In this document: positions 53,336 to 63,953 of the stretch, piece by piece | How the letters are laid out: each line of letters opens with the position of its first letter | Position numbering within the stretch: the first letter of the stretch is position 1 | Assembly (NCBI RefSeq): GCF_016862115.1 | Contig: NZ_BOMI01000114.1 | Coordinates: forward strand, 1 to 64,000 | DNA length: 64,000 nt | Reading direction: 5' to 3' | Source of the DNA: Paractinoplanes deccanensis | GTDB lineage: Bacteria > Actinomycetota > Actinomycetes > Mycobacteriales > Micromonosporaceae | The notes under the pieces: generated by a model | What the model was told of the DNA's origin: nothing | Database searches by the model: none | The model's input: only the letters and a program-made list of their open reading frames with translations | Translations under genes and position numbers: made by a program

Positions 53336-53378
53336 GAAGAACCACCTGAACCGCGTGCACGGCCGCGCACCGGGTTCA

Positions 53379-55286
53379 ATGGCGAACGTGGGTGCGACGA
53401 CGTTGCGGTTCAGCATTCTGGGCCCCGTGCGGGTCCGGAACGGCACGGTGGACCTGGAGCTGGGCGGGCGCCAGCAGCGGTTGCTGCTGGCGCTCCTGCT
53501 CGCCCGGGCCGGCTCGGTGGTGGGCCTCGGCGAGCTCGTCGACGCGATCTGGGGCGACGACCCACCGGCCAGCGCGGTCAACAGCATCCACCGCGCGGTC
53601 GGCACGCTGCGCCGGCTGATCGAGCCCAACCTGCCGGTGCGGGCGGTCGGCGAGCACCTCGTGCGGCACTCGGCCGGCTATCGCCTCGAGGTGGACGAGG
53701 ACGCGCTCGACCTGTTGCGCTTCCGGTCCCTGGTGCGGCGCGCGCGGCAGGCCGCGGGCGACGCCGAGGCCGTCCACCACTACGCCGAGGCGCTCGCGCT
53801 GTGGCAGGGGCCGCCGGCGGCGGGGCTGGAGCCGGTCTCACGTACCCATCCCGCCTTCATCGCCCTGGAGGCCGAGCTGGCGCAGACCGTGCGCGAGGCC
53901 GGCGACGTGGCCCTGCGGTCGGGCGGCTCGCGGCTGCTGCTGCCCACGTTGCGGCGGATCGCCGGCTGGCGCCCGTTCGACGAGGCGCTGCTGGCCCGCG
54001 TCATGCTCGCGCTGGCCGCGGAGGGCCGCCAGGCCGAGGCCCTCGACGCCTATCAGGAGGTGCGCCGCCGCCTCGCCGACGAGCTGGGCCTCGACCCGGG
54101 CCCCGAGCTGCGGCAGGCGCGCGATCGCGTGCTGCGCGGGCTCGCGGAGACCGAGCCCGTGCACGAGGAGGCGGCGGCGCCCACCCGGTTCGTGCCGGCT
54201 CAGCTGCCGGGCGACCACCCCTACTACACCGGCCGGGCCGACGTGCTCGCCCGCGCCGAGGCGATTCTGGCCGACGACCGCCGCCAGGGCCGCCCGACCG
54301 TGGCGCTGGCCTTCGACGGCATGCCCGGCGTCGGCAAGACCACCTTCGCGGTCCACCTCGCCCATCGGCTCGCACCGTCCTATCCGGACGGCCAGCTCTA
54401 CGTGGACCTCCGCGGCTACGCCCCGGAGGGTCCGATGACCCCGGCCGAGGCCTTGCGGGGCTTCCTCAGCTCCCTGGGTGTGCGCGGTGAGGACCGCCCC
54501 GCCGAGCTGCACGCCGCCGCCGGCCTGTTCCGCAGCCTGCTCGCGGGCCGCCGCATGCTGATCGTGCTGGACAACGCCCGCGACTTCGAGCAGGTGCGCC
54601 ACCTGCTGCCCGGCACCGGTGGAAGCCTGGTCCTTGTCACCAGCCGGGCCCGGCTCACCGACCTCATCACCGCGGGCGCCCACCCGCTGCCGATCGAGCT
54701 GCCCTCCTCGGCCGAGGCCCGCGACAACCTCGTCAGCCGCCTCGGGCGCGCCCGGGTGGAGGCCGAGCCGACCGCGGTGCAGGCCATCATCGAGCGCTGC
54801 GCGCGGCATCCGCTGGCGCTGGCCATGGTGGCGGCGCGGGCCATGGCGCTGCCGGACACGCCGCTCACCGAGATCGCCGCCGACCTGACCGGGGACCGGG
54901 AGCGCCTGGACGGCTTCGACGGCGGCCTGGCGGCCATCTTCTCCTGGTCCTACCGGGCCCTCTCCCCCGCCGCCGCGCGCCTGTTCCGGCTGCTGCCGGT
55001 CTATCCCGGCCCGGACATCACGGTGGACGTGGCGGCCGCGCTCGCGGGCACGGACGAGCGCACCGCACGGTCGCTGCTCGGCGAGCTGGCGGCGCAGATG
55101 CTCACCCAGGTGCGCGGCGGCCGGCACCAGCTGCACGACCTGCTTCGCGCGTACGCCTGGGGGCTGTCCGAGGCGGAGGACCCGCCGCCGAGCCGGGACG
55201 CGGCCGCCGCCCGGCTCTACGAGCACCTCGGCTGGGTCGATCAGCCCTCGAGGACCATCTCGGCGGCGCGCTCGGCGATCGCGTAG
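53379..55286 (+). CDS. AfsR/SARP-type regulator with BTAD and NB-ARC domains, C-terminally shortened
   Basis: About 635 aa. An OmpR-like winged helix (FSILGPVRVRNGTVDLELGGRQQRLLLALLLARAGSVV) leads a BTAD domain (about 95-245), then an NB-ARC NTPase with Walker A GMPGVGKT and LIVLDNA. The sequence ends in RDAAAARLYEHLGWVDQPSRTISAARSAIA, where AfsR relatives continue into TPR repeats, and the last 46 bp overlap the convergent oxidoreductase gene. It has lost the TPR sensor. GTG 53388, 7 nt after TTCAAT, is an alternative start. Confidence 0.85.
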   Translation: MANVGATTLRFSILGPVRVRNGTVDLELGGRQQRLLLALLLARAGSVVGLGELVDAIWGDDPPASAVNSIHRAVGTLRRLIEPNLPVRAVGEHLVRHSAGYRLEVDEDALDLLRFRSLVRRARQAAGDAEAVHHYAEALALWQGPPAAGLEPVSRTHPAFIALEAELAQTVREAGDVALRSGGSRLLLPTLRRIAGWRPFDEALLARVMLALAAEGRQAEALDAYQEVRRRLADELGLDPGPELRQARDRVLRGLAETEPVHEEAAAPTRFVPAQLPGDHPYYTGRADVLARAEAILADDRRQGRPTVALAFDGMPGVGKTTFAVHLAHRLAPSYPDGQLYVDLRGYAPEGPMTPAEALRGFLSSLGVRGEDRPAELHAAAGLFRSLLAGRRMLIVLDNARDFEQVRHLLPGTGGSLVLVTSRARLTDLITAGAHPLPIELPSSAEARDNLVSRLGRARVEAEPTAVQAIIERCARHPLALAMVAARAMALPDTPLTEIAADLTGDRERLDGFDGGLAAIFSWSYRALSPAAARLFRLLPVYPGPDITVDVAAALAGTDERTARSLLGELAAQMLTQVRGGRHQLHDLLRAYAWGLSEAEDPPPSRDAAAARLYEHLGWVDQPSRTISAARSAIA

Positions 55287-57640: not shown

Positions 57641-58156
57641 ATGGCCGATAATTGGCTTCCGGGACGCCAGGGACCGAGGGTCGCGGAGCGGGCTCTGTCG
57701 GCGGAGGAGGCGGCGTTCCTCGACGCGTTCCTCAGCGCCGCGGTGACCGTGCAGCGCAACCTCGACTCCGATCTCAAGTGCGAGCAGAACCGCACCCTGA
57801 GCGAGTACATCACGCTGCGCCGCCTCGGCGACGCGCCGGACCGGCGCATGCGCATCAACGAGCTCGCGGCGACCGCGTTCCTGTCGCTGAGCCGCATGAG
57901 CCGCATCGTGGAGAAGCTGGAACAGCAGGGCCTGGTCACCCGCGAGCAGGTGCCGGACGACCGCCGCGGCTGGAACGCGGTGCTCACCGAGGCCGGCATC
58001 GAGTGGCTGCGGCGCGGTGACCGGGCGTACGCGGCGAGCGTGCACCGCCACGTGCTCGACCAGCTCGACCGCCGCGACCTGCCGGCGCTCACCAGCGTGG
58101 CGCGGGTCCTGGCGAACCTGCCGGACCGCAAGCCCGCCTTCATGCGGGTGGCATGA
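57641..58156 (+). CDS. MarR-family transcriptional regulator
   Basis: A 171-aa regulator. The winged helix reads LGDAPDRRMRINELAATAFLSLSRMSRIVEKLEQQGLVTREQVPDDRRGWNAVLTEAGIEWL, with the typical DRR wing. The flanking helices LSAEEAAFLDAFLSAAVTVQRNLDSDL and the C-terminal helix form the dimer interface. The ATG at 57641 has AAAGGATCGG upstream. The 3' end overlaps the convergent flavoprotein gene by 17 bp. Confidence 0.9.
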   Translation: MADNWLPGRQGPRVAERALSAEEAAFLDAFLSAAVTVQRNLDSDLKCEQNRTLSEYITLRRLGDAPDRRMRINELAATAFLSLSRMSRIVEKLEQQGLVTREQVPDDRRGWNAVLTEAGIEWLRRGDRAYAASVHRHVLDQLDRRDLPALTSVARVLANLPDRKPAFMRVA

Positions 58157-59183
58157 GACGCCGCACCACATGAGCGGCGTCGCCGGGCATGCCGCCGAGA
58201 AAGCCGGAACCGAACGTGTTCTGCCAGGGCAGCCCGACGAAACCCAGCCCCGCGACGGTGGCCGAGACACCCCTGTGGTGTTCCGGCCACCCGTCGGCGC
58301 CGGCCGCCCGCGGGTCCAGCCAGCCGTAGTCGGGCCGGAAACCGGTGCACCACACCACCGCGGCGACGGGCAGGACCCGGCCGTCGGCGAGCAGCGGCAG
58401 GCCGTCGCGGACGCCGGCGACGCGCGGCACGCGGCGGACCCCGGCCCGGCGCAGGGCCGCCTCGGACTGCCAGATGAGCGGCCCGCCGCGCCGCACGGCG
58501 AGGGCACGGATCCATCGCCCGGGCGGCACCCTCCGGTCGTACAGCAGTCTCCGGACCACCGCGCTGCGCACCAGGCCCACCGGGACGTGTCCCGTGCGGC
58601 GGCCCGACAGCCAGACCTCACGCCCGCGCGCCAGATCGAGCGCGATGTCGGCGCCCGCCGTGCCCGCGCCGACGACCAGCACCGGGCCCGGCGGCAGATC
58701 GCCCGGCCGGTGGTAGTCGCTCGAATGCCGCTGCGCCAGGGCCGGGTCCAGCGCCGCGGCGAAACCCGGGACCGCGGGCCGGTGCAGCGCCCCGGTGGCC
58801 ACGATGACCCGTCGCGCGACGAGCGGCCCGTCATCGGTGCGCAGGTGGTGCAAGCCGTTCCCGTACGCGTGCGAGCGCACCGTGACACCCGAGCGCACCG
58901 GAAAGGCGAAGTGCTTCGCATACGCGGTCAGGTAGTCCGCCATCTCGTCGCGGGTGGGATGCGCGCCCGGCGGCAGCGGCATCGGCAGGCCGGGCAGCGC
59001 GCAGAACCGGGCCGGCGTGAACAGCCGCAGGCAGTCGTAGCGCTGCCGCCAGGCGTCGCCCACGGTCCGCGCCGCGTCCAGCACGGCGAAGGGCCGGCCC
59101 CGCTCGCGGAGGTGCCACGCCGCGGCCAGGCCGGCCGCGCCACCACCCACGACAACGGTGCCGGCCCGTTCCGCGATCGGCAC
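58140..59183 (-). CDS. FAD/NAD(P)-binding flavoprotein (CzcO/FMO-like)
   Basis: A 347-aa flavoprotein. FAD motif VVVGGGAAGLAAAWHLRERG near the N-terminus, a central NADP motif VLVVGAGTAGADIALDLARG (about 168-187), and VVWCTGFRPDYGWL near the C-terminus, as in flavin monooxygenases and CzcO-type proteins. It starts at GTG 59183, sharing one base with the hydrolase stop (TAGTG), so it is translated with that gene. It belongs to the ECF sigma-hydrolase-flavoprotein operon and its target may be oxidative detoxification (inference). Confidence 0.88.
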   Translation of the reverse strand: MPIAERAGTVVVGGGAAGLAAAWHLRERGRPFAVLDAARTVGDAWRQRYDCLRLFTPARFCALPGLPMPLPPGAHPTRDEMADYLTAYAKHFAFPVRSGVTVRSHAYGNGLHHLRTDDGPLVARRVIVATGALHRPAVPGFAAALDPALAQRHSSDYHRPGDLPPGPVLVVGAGTAGADIALDLARGREVWLSGRRTGHVPVGLVRSAVVRRLLYDRRVPPGRWIRALAVRRGGPLIWQSEAALRRAGVRRVPRVAGVRDGLPLLADGRVLPVAAVVWCTGFRPDYGWLDPRAAGADGWPEHHRGVSATVAGLGFVGLPWQNTFGSGFLGGMPGDAAHVVRRLMPPA

Positions 59184-60052
59184 TACTTCGGGTTGGCGGC
59201 GATGAACCGCAGCACCGCGTCCCCGAACCGCTCGGGCTCCTCGACGTTGCCGAGGTGGCCGCTGTGCTCGAGGATGACCAGGCGCGAGCCGGGGATCAGC
59301 TCGTGGATCTCGCGGGCCCAGCGCTCGCCGCAGATGATGTCGTAGCGGCCCGCGATGACCAGCGCCGGCACGGTGATGCGGGGCAGCAGCTCCCGGTCGT
59401 CGATGATCTCCGGGTTGCCGTCGGCGTCGCGGCCCGAGATGTAGGCGACGCGGAGGCGCTCGCGCAACGGCGCGAACTCCGCCTCCCGGCCCCAGTAGTC
59501 GGCCAGGTACGACGGCAGCAGCCCGCGCAGGGCGGCGGTCAGCTTGTCGTCGTCGGTGATCGAGCCCACCGACTGGAGCGCCTCGAGCACCGCCGGCACC
59601 TCGGGGTTGCCCTCGTTGCGCTTGACGAAGAGCTCGACCTGGCGGCCCGCCTCGGCGCCCTGCTCCGCGCCGGTCACCGGGGCGCTGTCGTAGAGGATCA
59701 CGCCGGCCAGGCGGGCCGGGCGGGTCGCCGCGTAGTACTGGGCCACGAAACCGCCGTACGAGTGGCCGAGCAGGAACACGCGGGCAACGCCCAGATCGTC
59801 GATGACGCGGTCGAGCGCCCGCGCGTAGAGCTCCCGGGTGTAGCCGTCGGGGTGGGTCGGCAGGCGGCCGGACTCGCCGGTGCCGAGCGCCTCGACGTAC
59901 GCCACCCGCGCGTGCTGTTCGACGCCGGGCATGCGCAGGTAGTCCCAGAAGACCCCGGGCCCGCCCGGCATCGCGACGACGACCGCGTCCCCCTGCCCGT
60001 AGAGGTGGTAGCGCTGCTCGACGCCGTTGACGTCGACGGTGTGGATAGCCAT
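59183..60052 (-). CDS. Alpha/beta hydrolase, proline iminopeptidase-like
   Basis: About 289 aa. Motifs: VVVAMPGGPGVFWDYLRMPG (oxyanion), YVEALGTGESGRL, nucleophile Ser in LLGHSYGGFVAQYY and His in LEHSGHLGNVE. The protein resembles S33 aminopeptidases and epoxide/lactone hydrolases. I place the start at ATG 60052; an in-frame GTG at 60103, only 3 nt after the sigma stop, would allow coupled initiation and is possible. It is the second gene of the ECF sigma operon. Confidence 0.83.
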   Translation of the reverse strand: MAIHTVDVNGVEQRYHLYGQGDAVVVAMPGGPGVFWDYLRMPGVEQHARVAYVEALGTGESGRLPTHPDGYTRELYARALDRVIDDLGVARVFLLGHSYGGFVAQYYAATRPARLAGVILYDSAPVTGAEQGAEAGRQVELFVKRNEGNPEVPAVLEALQSVGSITDDDKLTAALRGLLPSYLADYWGREAEFAPLRERLRVAYISGRDADGNPEIIDDRELLPRITVPALVIAGRYDIICGERWAREIHELIPGSRLVILEHSGHLGNVEEPERFGDAVLRFIAANPK

Positions 60053-60106
60053 GCCCGGTACGACGCGGCCACCGGCCCCCGATTCACCGATGTGATCGGG
60101 CACGCA

Positions 60107-60625
60107 TCAGGCGAGCGCCTGGCGCAGCGACCGCAGCGCGTAGTGGGCCCGGGACTTCACCGTTCCGGCGGGCAGGCCGAGCGCGCGGGCGGTCTCGGCG
60201 ACCGAGCGGCCCTTGACGTACAGCTCGTCGAGGATCACCCGGTGCGCCTCGCTGAGCGCGCGCAGCCCGCTGCGCAGCTGCTGGACAGCGACGGCCGTCT
60301 CCGCCGTGTCCTCGCGGGTCGGCACGGCGGTGAGGTCGTTGCCCTCGACCTCGGCCGGGCGCGCCTTGCGCATGCGCAGGGCGTCGATGGCGGTGTTGCG
60401 GGCGACCGTGTAGAGCCATCGCCGGGCCGGCTCGCCGCAGTCCGGCATCGCGTCCATCCGGCGCCAGGTGCGCAGCATCGTCTCCTGGAGAAGGTCCTCG
60501 GCGAATTCGCGGTCGCCGTGGGTGAAACCGCGTAGATAACTCAGCAAGGCGTCGCCGTATTCGGCGTGCAGCGCGCCGAGACGCGCGCTCGCGGCGTCCG
60601 CACAGGATTTGCTTCGAATGGCCAT
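60107..60625 (-). CDS. ECF sigma factor
   Basis: A 172-aa sigma-70 family factor. Region 2: LLSYLRGFTHGDREFAEDLLQETMLRTWRRMDAMPDCGEPARRWLYTVARNTAIDALR; region 4: LRALSEAHRVILDELYVKGRSVAETARALGLPAGTVKSRAHYALRSLRQALA. It resembles the SigL/SigK-type ECF group. No zinc anti-sigma is adjacent. A motif GAACTTT-N11-TCCGTY occurs both upstream of this gene and upstream of the neighbouring lipoprotein gene, consistent with self-directed promoters. ATG at 60625. Confidence 0.9.
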   Translation of the reverse strand: MAIRSKSCADAASARLGALHAEYGDALLSYLRGFTHGDREFAEDLLQETMLRTWRRMDAMPDCGEPARRWLYTVARNTAIDALRMRKARPAEVEGNDLTAVPTREDTAETAVAVQQLRSGLRALSEAHRVILDELYVKGRSVAETARALGLPAGTVKSRAHYALRSLRQALA

Positions 60626-60838
60626 GATCGATCCCCGTCCGTGGCTCTGCCGACATGATCTGACAGGGCGAAAGGTAGGCCGGGGCCGTGGCGGCGAAGT
60701 GGGGATCGAGTGGCGTTCCGGTGGGCGCGAGGACGGCCGCGGCCCGCCTGCGGCGCCGGCCGATCGGGGGGAAGGCGAGCGGCACCGCGGCGACCACCGC
60801 GGCCGTCGCAGGGTTGAACGGATGCCGTGCCGGAAAGT
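60626..60838. other. Leader region of the ECF sigma operon, no gene seen
   Basis: Frames in this 213-bp stretch are short and lack start signals. If the motif at 60817-60840 is the sigma promoter, the 5' leader would be about 185 nt. Confidence 0.4.
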
Positions 60839-60840
60839 TC
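60817..60840 (-). promoter_or_regulatory. Candidate ECF promoter upstream of the sigma operon
   Basis: On the minus strand it reads GAACTTT-N11-TCCGTT, with GAAC as -35 and CGTT as -10 separated by 16 nt. It overlaps the end of the small lipoprotein gene and repeats the motif at 61053-61076. Confidence 0.5.
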
Positions 60841-61015
60841 AAACGCCCCGGCGGTAAACGTAGACAGCGGGCCTGTCCTGGGCGGGCTTGGTGTCCGGGC
60901 CGGGCGCGGTGGCGGCGGCCGCGTCGGCGGCCGTGCGCTCCTCGCCGCAGGCGGAGGCGAACGCGAGGCCGAAACTCGCGACGATGGCGAGCGGGGCGAT
61001 ACGGGCACGTCGCAT
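60839..61015 (-). CDS. Small lipoprotein (58 aa)
   Basis: A short protein: MRRARIAPLAIVASFGLAFASAC is a classical lipoprotein signal with lipobox ASAC, followed by an acidic GEERTAADAAAATAPG spacer and the tail DTKPAQDRPAVYVYRRGV. An AAGGAG ribosome site lies 8 nt before the ATG, which strongly supports a real gene despite its size. Its upstream motif matches one upstream of the adjacent ECF sigma gene, suggesting common regulation. Function unknown. Confidence 0.75.
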   Translation of the reverse strand: MRRARIAPLAIVASFGLAFASACGEERTAADAAAATAPGPDTKPAQDRPAVYVYRRGV

Positions 61016-61052
61016 GGGAGGGCTCCTTCGAATCGGGTCGTGCCCCCGGTAC

Positions 61053-61076
61053 GACGGACGGCGCGCGCAAAAGTTC
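61053..61076 (-). promoter_or_regulatory. Candidate ECF promoter of the small lipoprotein gene
   Basis: On the minus strand it reads GAACTTT-N11-TCCGTC, -35 GAAC and -10 CGTC separated by 16 nt, and about 40 bp before the ATG. It is nearly the same as the motif at 60817-60840. Confidence 0.55.
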
Positions 61077-61202
61077 GAAACAGGGGCGGAGCCCGTTTTC
61101 CGCCGTTCACGACGGCCGCGAAGCCCGCCGGGTTCACCGCGCGCCGACAATCTCTCAGAAGCATTCGGAACGCCTATTCGGCGGGCTATCTTTGGCGCCG
61201 TT

Positions 61203-63953
61203 GTGAGCCAGAACCCAATCCGATTCACCGTGCTCGGGCCGGTGCGGGCGTTCAGCGGGGATCGCGAGCTCAATCTCGGCCCCCGGCAGCAGCGGCAGGT
61301 GCTCGGCCTCCTGCTGATCCGCGCCGGGCGCGACATTCCCGTGCACCAGTTCGTCGAGATGCTGTGGGGACACGCGGCGCCGGCGAGCGCGGTGAACAGC
61401 CTGCACCGGTTCATCGGCGCGCTGCGGCGGATCCTCGAGCCCGACCTGCCCGCCCGGTCGCAGGGGCGATGGCTGCTGCGCCGGGACGCCGCCTACCGGC
61501 TGGTGGCGCCGCAGGGCGCGATCGACCTGATGGAGTTCCGGCGGCTGGCCGACGAGGCCCGCGAGGCCGAGAGCATGGGCTTTCGCGACGTGGCGATCGC
61601 CCGGTACGCCGAGGCGCTGCGCCAGTCGAGCGGCCGCTGCGCCGACGACGGTTCCGACGACACCCACCGCTACTCCGTCTTCCTCTCCATCGATGCCGAG
61701 TACGCGACGGTCGCCCGGGACGCGGCCCGCGCGGCGGTGGCGTTCGGCCGCCTCGGCGAGCTGCTGCCGGAGGTGCGGCGGGCGGCCGAGATGAACCCGC
61801 TCGACGAGTCGCTGCAGGCCCGGCTGATGCTGATGCTCGCCGCGGACGGGCGGCAGGCGGACGCGTTCGCGCTGTTCCAGTCGGTGCGCGACACCCTCGC
61901 CCGGGAGCTGGGCGTCGATCCCGGGCCGGAGCTGCGCGCCGCCTACGACGAGGTCCTGCAACCTCGGCAGCTCAAGGCCGCCGACCCCGCGCAGGTGGTC
62001 CGGGTCTCCCCCGCCCAGCTGCCGCGCGACCTGCCGCTGTTCACCGGCCGCCGCGCGGAGCTGGACCGGATCGGCGAGCTCCGGCGCGCCGGCGAGCGGG
62101 ACGGCGGCATGCCGGTCATCGCGATCGACGGCATGCCCGGGGTGGGCAAGTCGACCGTCGCGCTGCACTGGGCGTACGAGGTGATGAGCCGCTTCCCGGA
62201 CGGGCAGCTCTATCTGGACCTGCGCGGCGAGGACCCGGGAAGCGCCCTGAGCTCGCTGCTGAGCACGCTCGGCGTCCCCGAGACGGCCCTGCCCTCCGGG
62301 GTGGCCGCCAAGGCCGCGCTCTACCGCAGCCACCTCGCCGGGCGCCGGATGCTGGTGCTGCTCGACAACGCGGAGAGCGCCGAGCAGGTGCGCCCGCTGC
62401 TGCCCGGCGCCGCCGAGTGCCTGACGCTCGTCACCAGCCGGCGGCGGCTCACCGCGCTGGCCGCCTCCGACGGCGCCCACCTGCTCACCCTCGGCCTGCC
62501 CGGCGCCGACGAGGCGCGGCAGCTGCTCACCCGGCGGCTCGCGGCGGCGCTGGGCGAGCGCAACTGGGCCGCCGAGCGCGCGGCGCTGGACGCGATCGCC
62601 CGCGCGTGCGGCCGGCTGCCGGCGGCGCTGACCACGGTCGCCGCCGAGGCCGGCAGCCATCCGGCGGTGAGCCTCGACGGTGTCGCGGCGACCCTGCGGC
62701 GCGACCCGGGCCTCGACGCGTTCGGCGGCCTGCGGACCGCCTTCGCCGGCTCGTACGAGGCGCTGCCCGAGCCCGCCGCGCGCCTGTTCCGGCTGCTGTC
62801 GCTGCACCCGGGCCCCGACCTGGCACCCGCCGCGGCGGCGAGCCTCGCGGGCCTGCCCGAGCGCGAGACCGGCGCGCTGATCGCCCGGCTCGCCGCCGAG
62901 CACCTGGTGACCGTCTCGGCGTCGCAACGGATCGCCCAGCACGTGCTGCTGCGGGCGTACGCGGCCGAGCTGTCCGGCAAGCACGACGCGCCGGCCTCGG
63001 CCGAGCAAGCCCGGGCGCGGCTGTTCGCGCATTACCGGCACACCGCGTACGAGGCGAACCGGAACCTGCGCCCCCTGCTGGAGCCGATCCCGCCCGGGGC
63101 GGCGCCTGCGGGCGTCACCGTCGAGACGTTCGGCGAGTACTGCCGGGCCTTCGCGTGGTTCCGCGCCGAGCATCGCGTGCTGCGCGCCCTCGTCGAGCAG
63201 TGCGCCGGCTCCGCCGACGGCCCCGGGGTCTGGCAGCTGGCCACGACCATGGTGCCGTTCTATCAGTGGAGCGGACTGCTGCACGACTGGCTCGCCACCA
63301 TGCGGGCCGGGCTCGCGTCCGCGGAGCGCACCGGCGACCCGCTCGGCCAGGCGCACATGCAGCGCTGCCTGGCCGGCGCCGTCTACTCGCTCGGCGACCA
63401 GGACGAGGCCCGCGACCGGCTCCAGCGGGCGCTGCGGCTGTTCACCGGCCTCGGCGTGCTGACCGGGCAGGCGCACGTCCATCTCAACCTGGGCCTGGTG
63501 CGGCCGGCCGACGAGGCGTCGTTCGGCACCGCCCTCAAGCTGTACGAGCGGGCCGGCTACGAGAGGGGCGTCGTGACTGCCACGGAGGGTGTCGCGCTCT
63601 CCCACGCCACGCTGGGCCGCGACGCGTCGGCGATCGCCCTCTACGAGCGGGCGATGGCCGGATACCAGCGGCTCGGCGACCAGCGCGGGGTGGCCAGCTG
63701 CCTGCTCGGGCTGGGCCGGCTGCGGCGGCGCGCGGGCGACAGCGAGGTGGCCGCCGAGCTGCTGCGCCGGGCGGTCGAGCTGTTCCGGGAGGCGTGCCAC
63801 CGCGGCGAGGAGGCGGAGGCGCTGATCGTGCTCGGCGACACGCTCGCCGGCGCCGAGGCCTCCGCGGCCTGGCGGGCCGCCCTGGACATCCTCGCCGAGC
63901 TGCGCCTGCCGGCCGCGCAGGACGTGCGCGACAGATTGCACAGTGGAAGGTGA
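61203..63953 (+). CDS. AfsR/SARP-type regulator with BTAD, NB-ARC and TPR domains
   Basis: About 916 aa, the complete form of the architecture that is shortened at 53379-55286. DNA-binding OmpR-like domain (IRFTVLGPVRAFSGDRELNLGPRQQRQVLGLLLIRAGRDI), BTAD (about 100-245), NB-ARC with Walker A GMPGVGKS and LVLLDNA, then TPR repeats in the last 300 residues (LGQAHMQRCLAGAVYSLGDQDEARDRLQRALRLF, ATLGRDASAIALYERAMAGYQRLGDQRG). Such proteins activate secondary metabolism or differentiation genes. The start is GTG 61203. Its stop overlaps the next gene's GTG (GTGA). Confidence 0.92.
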   Translation: MSQNPIRFTVLGPVRAFSGDRELNLGPRQQRQVLGLLLIRAGRDIPVHQFVEMLWGHAAPASAVNSLHRFIGALRRILEPDLPARSQGRWLLRRDAAYRLVAPQGAIDLMEFRRLADEAREAESMGFRDVAIARYAEALRQSSGRCADDGSDDTHRYSVFLSIDAEYATVARDAARAAVAFGRLGELLPEVRRAAEMNPLDESLQARLMLMLAADGRQADAFALFQSVRDTLARELGVDPGPELRAAYDEVLQPRQLKAADPAQVVRVSPAQLPRDLPLFTGRRAELDRIGELRRAGERDGGMPVIAIDGMPGVGKSTVALHWAYEVMSRFPDGQLYLDLRGEDPGSALSSLLSTLGVPETALPSGVAAKAALYRSHLAGRRMLVLLDNAESAEQVRPLLPGAAECLTLVTSRRRLTALAASDGAHLLTLGLPGADEARQLLTRRLAAALGERNWAAERAALDAIARACGRLPAALTTVAAEAGSHPAVSLDGVAATLRRDPGLDAFGGLRTAFAGSYEALPEPAARLFRLLSLHPGPDLAPAAAASLAGLPERETGALIARLAAEHLVTVSASQRIAQHVLLRAYAAELSGKHDAPASAEQARARLFAHYRHTAYEANRNLRPLLEPIPPGAAPAGVTVETFGEYCRAFAWFRAEHRVLRALVEQCAGSADGPGVWQLATTMVPFYQWSGLLHDWLATMRAGLASAERTGDPLGQAHMQRCLAGAVYSLGDQDEARDRLQRALRLFTGLGVLTGQAHVHLNLGLVRPADEASFGTALKLYERAGYERGVVTATEGVALSHATLGRDASAIALYERAMAGYQRLGDQRGVASCLLGLGRLRRRAGDSEVAAELLRRAVELFREACHRGEEAEALIVLGDTLAGAEASAAWRAALDILAELRLPAAQDVRDRLHSGR

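Follow-up and report, generated by a model that had tools for sequence, protein, structure and literature searches.

Three sites on the reverse strand of the window, i.e. the whole 64,000-nucleotide stretch of Paractinoplanes deccanensis DNA analysed here (source genome 10.6 Mb), are read with moderate confidence as ECF-type promoters. They are most likely used by the SigL-like ECF sigma factor encoded beside them, which would activate a small lipoprotein gene and, in a feedback loop, its own operon. This reading draws on the sequences and spacing of the sites (Pa, Pb and Pc), the conservation of Pc in a related species and the repeated co-occurrence of lipoprotein, sigma and hydrolase genes. 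The repeat alone is unremarkable; the case for promoters rests on the comparison of species. No publication on this locus was found in a literature search.

Sites around the lipoprotein gene

The initial annotation had described a bipartite motif, GAACTTT-N11-TCCGTY with 16 nucleotides (nt) between GAAC and CGTY, before the lipoprotein gene and again before the sigma operon (Table 1). Both copies, Pb and Pc, are exact, lie on the reverse strand and are the only matches in the window, none occurring in any of 100 shuffles; the spacing is 16 nt in each, as claimed. The 3' end of Pb is separated from the lipoprotein ATG by 37 nt containing AAGGAG, and the GAAC of Pc overlaps the lipoprotein TGA stop codon (60841-60839), its 3' end lying some 190 nt upstream of the sigma ATG. 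Promoters of SigL have a −35 element of the TGAACC type, 16-17 nt from CGT. GAAC at this distance from CGT is found in Pa, Pb and Pc, preceded by T in Pa and Pc (TGAAC) and by C in Pb (CGAAC).

Table 1 Features of the locus, with positions in the window
Feature	Position	Strand	Description or basis
Pa	61111..61136	-	TGAAC-N17-CGTC, resembling an ECF promoter; lipoprotein-distal; missed in the initial annotation
Pb	61053..61076	-	GAACTTT-N11-TCCGTC, sequence GAACTTTTGCGCGCGCCGTCCGTC; first site of the initial annotation
Predicted lipoprotein gene, 58 aa	60839..61015	-	Signal peptide, Cys23; ATG at 61015
Pc	60817..60840	-	GAACTTT-N11-TCCGTT, sequence GAACTTTCCGGCACGGCATCCGTT; second site of the initial annotation
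TACCTT, possible housekeeping-type −10 (TANNNT) near sigma start	60672..60677	-	Sequence and alignment with locus L069
SigL-like ECF sigma factor gene, 172 aa	60107..60625	-	Regions 2 and 4 (Pfam); ATG at 60625
Alpha/beta hydrolase gene, directly after sigma	59183..60103	-	Pfam
Flavoprotein gene (pyridine nucleotide-disulphide oxidoreductase fold), last of the putative operon	58140..59183	-	Pfam
AfsR/SARP-type regulator gene, divergent	61203..63953	+	BTAD, NB-ARC, TPR (Pfam)

The cluster is flanked by two SARP/AfsR-type regulators with NB-ARC domains, at 53355-55286 and 61203-63953 (+).

The motif was defined post hoc, and its repetition by itself is not above chance, because an equally long bipartite repeat at a spacing of 8-20 turns up at least once in 227 of 260 tiles of the window (104 of 260 at spacing 11 alone). 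These tiles are 130 overlapping stretches of 970 bases on both strands; most of their sequence is coding, and coding sequence favours repeats. A match to the ECF form is less common than a mere bipartite repeat. Over both strands of the window (128,000 strand-bases) GAAC-N16-CGTY was counted 13 times, Pb and Pc included, or about 0.1 per 970-base strand stretch, and GAAC-N17-CGTY seven times, one of them Pa (at 61135).

A genome-wide scan, proposed earlier as a way to define the regulon, yielded no set of sites that would do so. Three exact copies of GAACTTT-N11-TCCGTY exist in the whole genome (none of the reversed-pattern control), and allowing up to two mismatches raises this to 71, with 47 for the control; 12 of these 71 matches were inspected. 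The third exact copy (C156:93617) does not precede a convincing gene: in the filtered gene call no open reading frame follows it on the same strand within 700 nt, and the 90-aa frame that begins 46 nt downstream in the unfiltered call lies in sequence lacking the coding-type GC pattern that the filter requires.

Conservation in related species

The locus of Paractinoplanes atraurantiacus (genome G201, locus L069) has the same gene order as the window, namely SARP, lipoprotein, sigma, hydrolase, MarR, TetR and GMC oxidoreductase; the flavoprotein has no match there, nor elsewhere in the ten loci compared around hydrolase relatives. Identity is 87% for the sigma factor and 84% for the lipoprotein, whose gene (dN 0.088, dS 0.58) is, as judged from these values, under constraint. 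Pc reads GAACTTTCGCCACCGCGCCCCGTC in L069 and again lies over the lipoprotein stop codon. Its TGAACTTT is kept in 8/8 letters together with CCGTY, and the inner spacer is identical in only 3/12. Among 157 ungapped placements of the motif shape in the non-coding alignment, both boxes (seven letters and CCGT identical, the last letter alike as Y or R) are retained in nine, and retained beside a diverged spacer (at most 5/11 letters identical) in two. Pc is one of these; the other, at 61193, does not look like a promoter. In Pa the GAAC and CGTC are identical at spacing 17, but the inner spacer is also identical in 8/13 letters and the whole surrounding intergenic region in 101/128, so that Pa appears hardly better conserved than its surroundings. 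Pb is absent in this closest relative, where its position falls inside a 59-column gap (61106-61048).

The 58-aa protein has no Pfam or NCBIfam match. Lipoproteins carry a small residue before the cysteine that follows the signal peptide, and the window protein reads LAFASAC at this place. When 354 genomes of the family were searched with a profile, 17 candidates being scored per genome, eight clear members came out, that of the window included, all from its genus (E 9e-14 or better); the next matches, from E 1e-6, were left uncounted, and a longer protein seems to account for most of them. The residue before the cysteine is alanine in six of the eight and proline in L070 and L143. A scan of contigs for the lipoprotein returned eight loci, four in named relatives (P. 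atraurantiacus; Actinoplanes solisilvae, G222; Paractinoplanes maris, G214; Actinoplanes liguriensis, G212) and four in Chloroflexi MAGs that match residues 7-31 only, i.e. the signal-peptide part.

Within 160 nt upstream, GAAC-N16/17-CGTY is found at five of the eight lipoprotein genes (window, L069, L072, L143 and L146), compared with 44 of 1170 background tiles, which were taken from the same loci with the sites themselves included. If any base is allowed after CGT, six of eight genes stand against 67 of 1170 tiles, the sixth being L070 with CGTG; L144 and L145 have no GAAC-N16/17-CGT in this range. The cases are not independent, since window/L069 and L070/L143 are close pairs, so that they amount to fewer than eight. 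In A. solisilvae (L146) the counterpart of Pa is TGAAC-N17-CGTT, and that of Pb, by eye, only a degenerate GAAT-N17-CGTT. The role of a co-regulated partner that the initial annotation predicted for the lipoprotein is supported in several species by the recurrence of similar sites, although the site claimed for it, Pb, has no counterpart in P. atraurantiacus. A sensing role of the lipoprotein is a guess.

Other elements were noticed at these loci. In A. solisilvae a TGAAC-N17-CGTC lies between the sigma and MarR genes, before MarR (L146 13156-13132, -), which may make MarR a target in this species. Palindrome-like elements, CCAGGG...CGACCAGTG...CCCTGGGG, possibly an operator, were seen by eye in L070, L143, L072 and L144 from an SDR-like gene (a label likewise given by eye) to the lipoprotein or sigma gene.

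Sigma genes were compared in 33 loci, comprising the window, 29 from the family search and three further paralogs of the own genome. GAAC-N16-CGT was reported within 500 nt upstream in at least four (window, L005, L032 and C13, where it overlaps the likely sigma start codon); the scan gives the longest spacing per GAAC (Pb is listed at 19), so that counts at a single spacing are lower bounds. Against a background of 0.34 per 530 nt over six spacings, four of 33 loci is about chance, and a site common to the sigma paralogs was rejected. Sigma and hydrolase genes share one small cluster in G201, G140, G214 and G212. In G140 sigma is followed by hydrolase, and TGAAC-N16-CGTT lies about 100 nt upstream of sigma. 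The lipoprotein gene also accompanies sigma and hydrolase in G214 and G212, where the order of the three is changed; upstream of these sigma genes no GAAC-N14-18-CGTY was found (part of the G212 sequence is N), nor was GAAC-N15-18-CGTB within 500 nt upstream of the sigma gene adjoining the lipoprotein gene of G222. Because of these absences and the four of 33 loci, the motif goes with the lipoprotein genes and with the sigma genes of window-G201 and G140, and not with such sigma genes in general.

A general ECF site before hydrolase genes was also dismissed as too weak: GAAC-N15-17-CGTB occurs in the roughly 290 nt before the gene in 5 of 27 loci (expected about 0.08 each), and two of the five are near-identical. 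One hydrolase paralog of the own genome is preceded by TGAAC-N16-CGTTAGGG (C14:26974-27002), as is its counterpart in G201 (L147), with most flanking letters kept too; it is a possible trans target of a SigL-like sigma factor. Separately, the 10.6-Mb genome contains exactly two copies of CAGGG-N4-GCACGGGTTCG. One, at C14:26953-26972 (+), precedes this hydrolase paralog; the other, at C114:85756-85775 (-), precedes the sigma paralog C114b, which lies on the same contig as the window. The element is also present in L032, L070 and L147. With mismatches there are none at one and 28 at two, 30 in total against 27 for the reversed control. By eye, GGGT repeats 11 nt apart accompany the element, at a constant distance to a downstream CGT/GGT box. 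The element suggests a shared control of the C14 hydrolase and C114b sigma paralogs.

The sigma factor and competing readings of the sites

The sigma factor consists of regions 2 and 4 and nothing more (PF04542 at 21-87 and PF04545 at 121-169 of 172 aa). Its best PDB match is SigL of Mycobacterium tuberculosis (6dv9, E=2e-27), with which it has the region 4 segment TVKSR.HYA.R.LR in common. The best NCBIfam match is PRK09645, which we take to be the SigL family; as the score of 166.4 bits is below the curated cut-off of 202, the protein is called SigL-like and not SigL. A tree of 38 sigma rows pairs it with the sigma factor of G201 (100/99), and both group with those of G212, G140, G214 and G143 and the own paralog C114b (95/87). 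Among 17 neighbouring proteins scanned there is no RslA-type zinc-binding anti-sigma factor and no two-component system; the next gene is that of the hydrolase.

The −10 element of SigL is described as T-G-N-C/A-A-G, preferably after C-G, and Asp60 of SigL as setting the G at −11 (PMC6372665). The window sigma factor has Asp at this position and that of G201 Glu. SigL His54 aligns with Arg, so that the pocket may differ from that of SigL. The base following CGT (position −11) is C, C and T at Pa, Pb and Pc, not G as in SigL, which despite the Asp counts against a simple SigL-like reading of the sites by this sigma factor.

The sites could therefore be real ECF promoters read by another ECF sigma factor, the local one being a target and not its own activator, a possibility that we regard as doubtful. 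GAAC/CGTY is a general form of ECF promoters, at least 17 ECF-type relatives of the sigma factor exist in the own genome (17 of 124 candidates scored), and the G predicted from the conserved Asp60 is missing. However, such sites recur at lipoprotein genes close to a sigma factor of this very branch (window, L069, L072 and L146), and one also precedes the sigma gene in G140. The local sigma factor is kept as the most likely reader. Of the earlier proposal that the motif is the promoter of the sigma factor's own genes, the ECF type finds support in the retained Pc, the five lipoprotein genes and the closeness to SigL; its use by this sigma factor is what we infer, with the many relatives and the missing G on the other side.

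A chance resemblance of two boxes in GC-rich DNA, with no role as promoter, is judged unlikely. It would account for the many tiles with equally strong repeats, the loss of Pb, the chance-level occurrence at sigma loci and the third genomic copy without a convincing gene, but not readily for two Pc boxes kept while the spacer diverged, nor for sites at five of eight lipoprotein genes as opposed to 44 of 1170 tiles. The sites are probably real ECF promoters. That the boxes bind the divergent SARP or another regulator instead of a sigma factor is very improbable: SARPs bind spaced repeats and a SARP gene adjoins the lipoprotein gene in L069 and L146 as well, but Pc precedes sigma outside the SARP intergenic region, letters and spacing match ECF promoters, and L070 and L072 have no SARP match.

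Proposed circuit and comparison with known systems

In the favoured reading by the local sigma factor, promoters with GAAC at −35, a spacer of 16-17 and CGTY at −10 would act at two places. Pa and Pb would drive the small lipoprotein gene, and Pc, over the lipoprotein stop codon, the sigma, hydrolase and flavoprotein genes; if Pc drives the sigma operon, the sigma factor would therefore activate its own synthesis in a positive feedback loop. As the neighbouring genes that were scanned include none for an anti-sigma factor, the loop is probably set off at the level of transcription, either by a basal promoter close to the start of sigma or by the adjacent SARP, MarR or TetR-type regulators. TACCTT (60677-60672), a possible housekeeping −10, aligns with TAGCTT in L069; there the probable GTG start of sigma follows after 7 nt, and the transcript would be leaderless. 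TAGGCT is found within 90 nt upstream in 12 of the 33 sigma loci.

The long leader from Pc to sigma was considered as well. Its RNA folds with z −1.89, and 5 of 200 shuffles are as good. On the reverse strand TCGATCCCC (60709-60701) and GGGGATCGA (60636-60628) can pair, which would mask the sigma ribosome-binding site; by eye, the pairing is not kept in the L069 alignment. Lipoprotein and sigma genes share a frame in the window, with 71 open codons between them, but read-through was rejected, as they are out of frame in L069 and the intervening frame is without coding GC pattern.

If the proposal holds, it names a few promoters that can be tested for a SigL-like sigma factor without anti-sigma factor among the neighbours scanned, in a genus rich in ECF sigma factors, and, in the lipoprotein and hydrolase, co-regulated genes that could lead to the signal. 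In addition, it would be a natural test of carrying the −11 specificity of SigL over to relatives. It is conceivable, at long odds, that a sigma factor lacking an anti-sigma is kept in a feedback loop with a hydrolase and a micro-lipoprotein specific to the genus, and that these two together sense and report an envelope or small-molecule signal; to our knowledge, ECF control of this kind has not been described before.

The proposal is plausible, since relatives keep some of the sites, but of an ordinary kind, an autoregulated ECF sigma factor being a well-known type of system. SigE/CseBC/CseA of Streptomyces coelicolor (ECF39) is likewise described as a transcriptionally controlled ECF system with a lipoprotein, CseA, in the circuit; there CseBC forms a two-component system (PMC8999054), whereas none is among the 17 proteins scanned here. 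The orphan ECF factor AntA of Streptomyces resembles the window sigma factor in having two domains, no co-encoded anti-sigma factor and conserved −35 and −10 boxes at its target genes, but it controls antimycin genes and ends in Ala-Ala (PMC3933326). In contrast, the window sigma factor ends in Ala-Leu-Ala and adjoins hydrolase and small lipoprotein genes. M. tuberculosis SigL differs by its RslA-like anti-sigma factor, without counterpart among the neighbours scanned, by His54 in place of Arg and by its strong preference for G at −11, where the window sites have C or T (PMC6372665). However, it is the closest solved relative, transcribes its own promoter P-sigL and has C-G-T at −14 to −12 (PMC6372665), and the GAAC-type −35 and the distance of 16-17 nt to CGT are the same in both.
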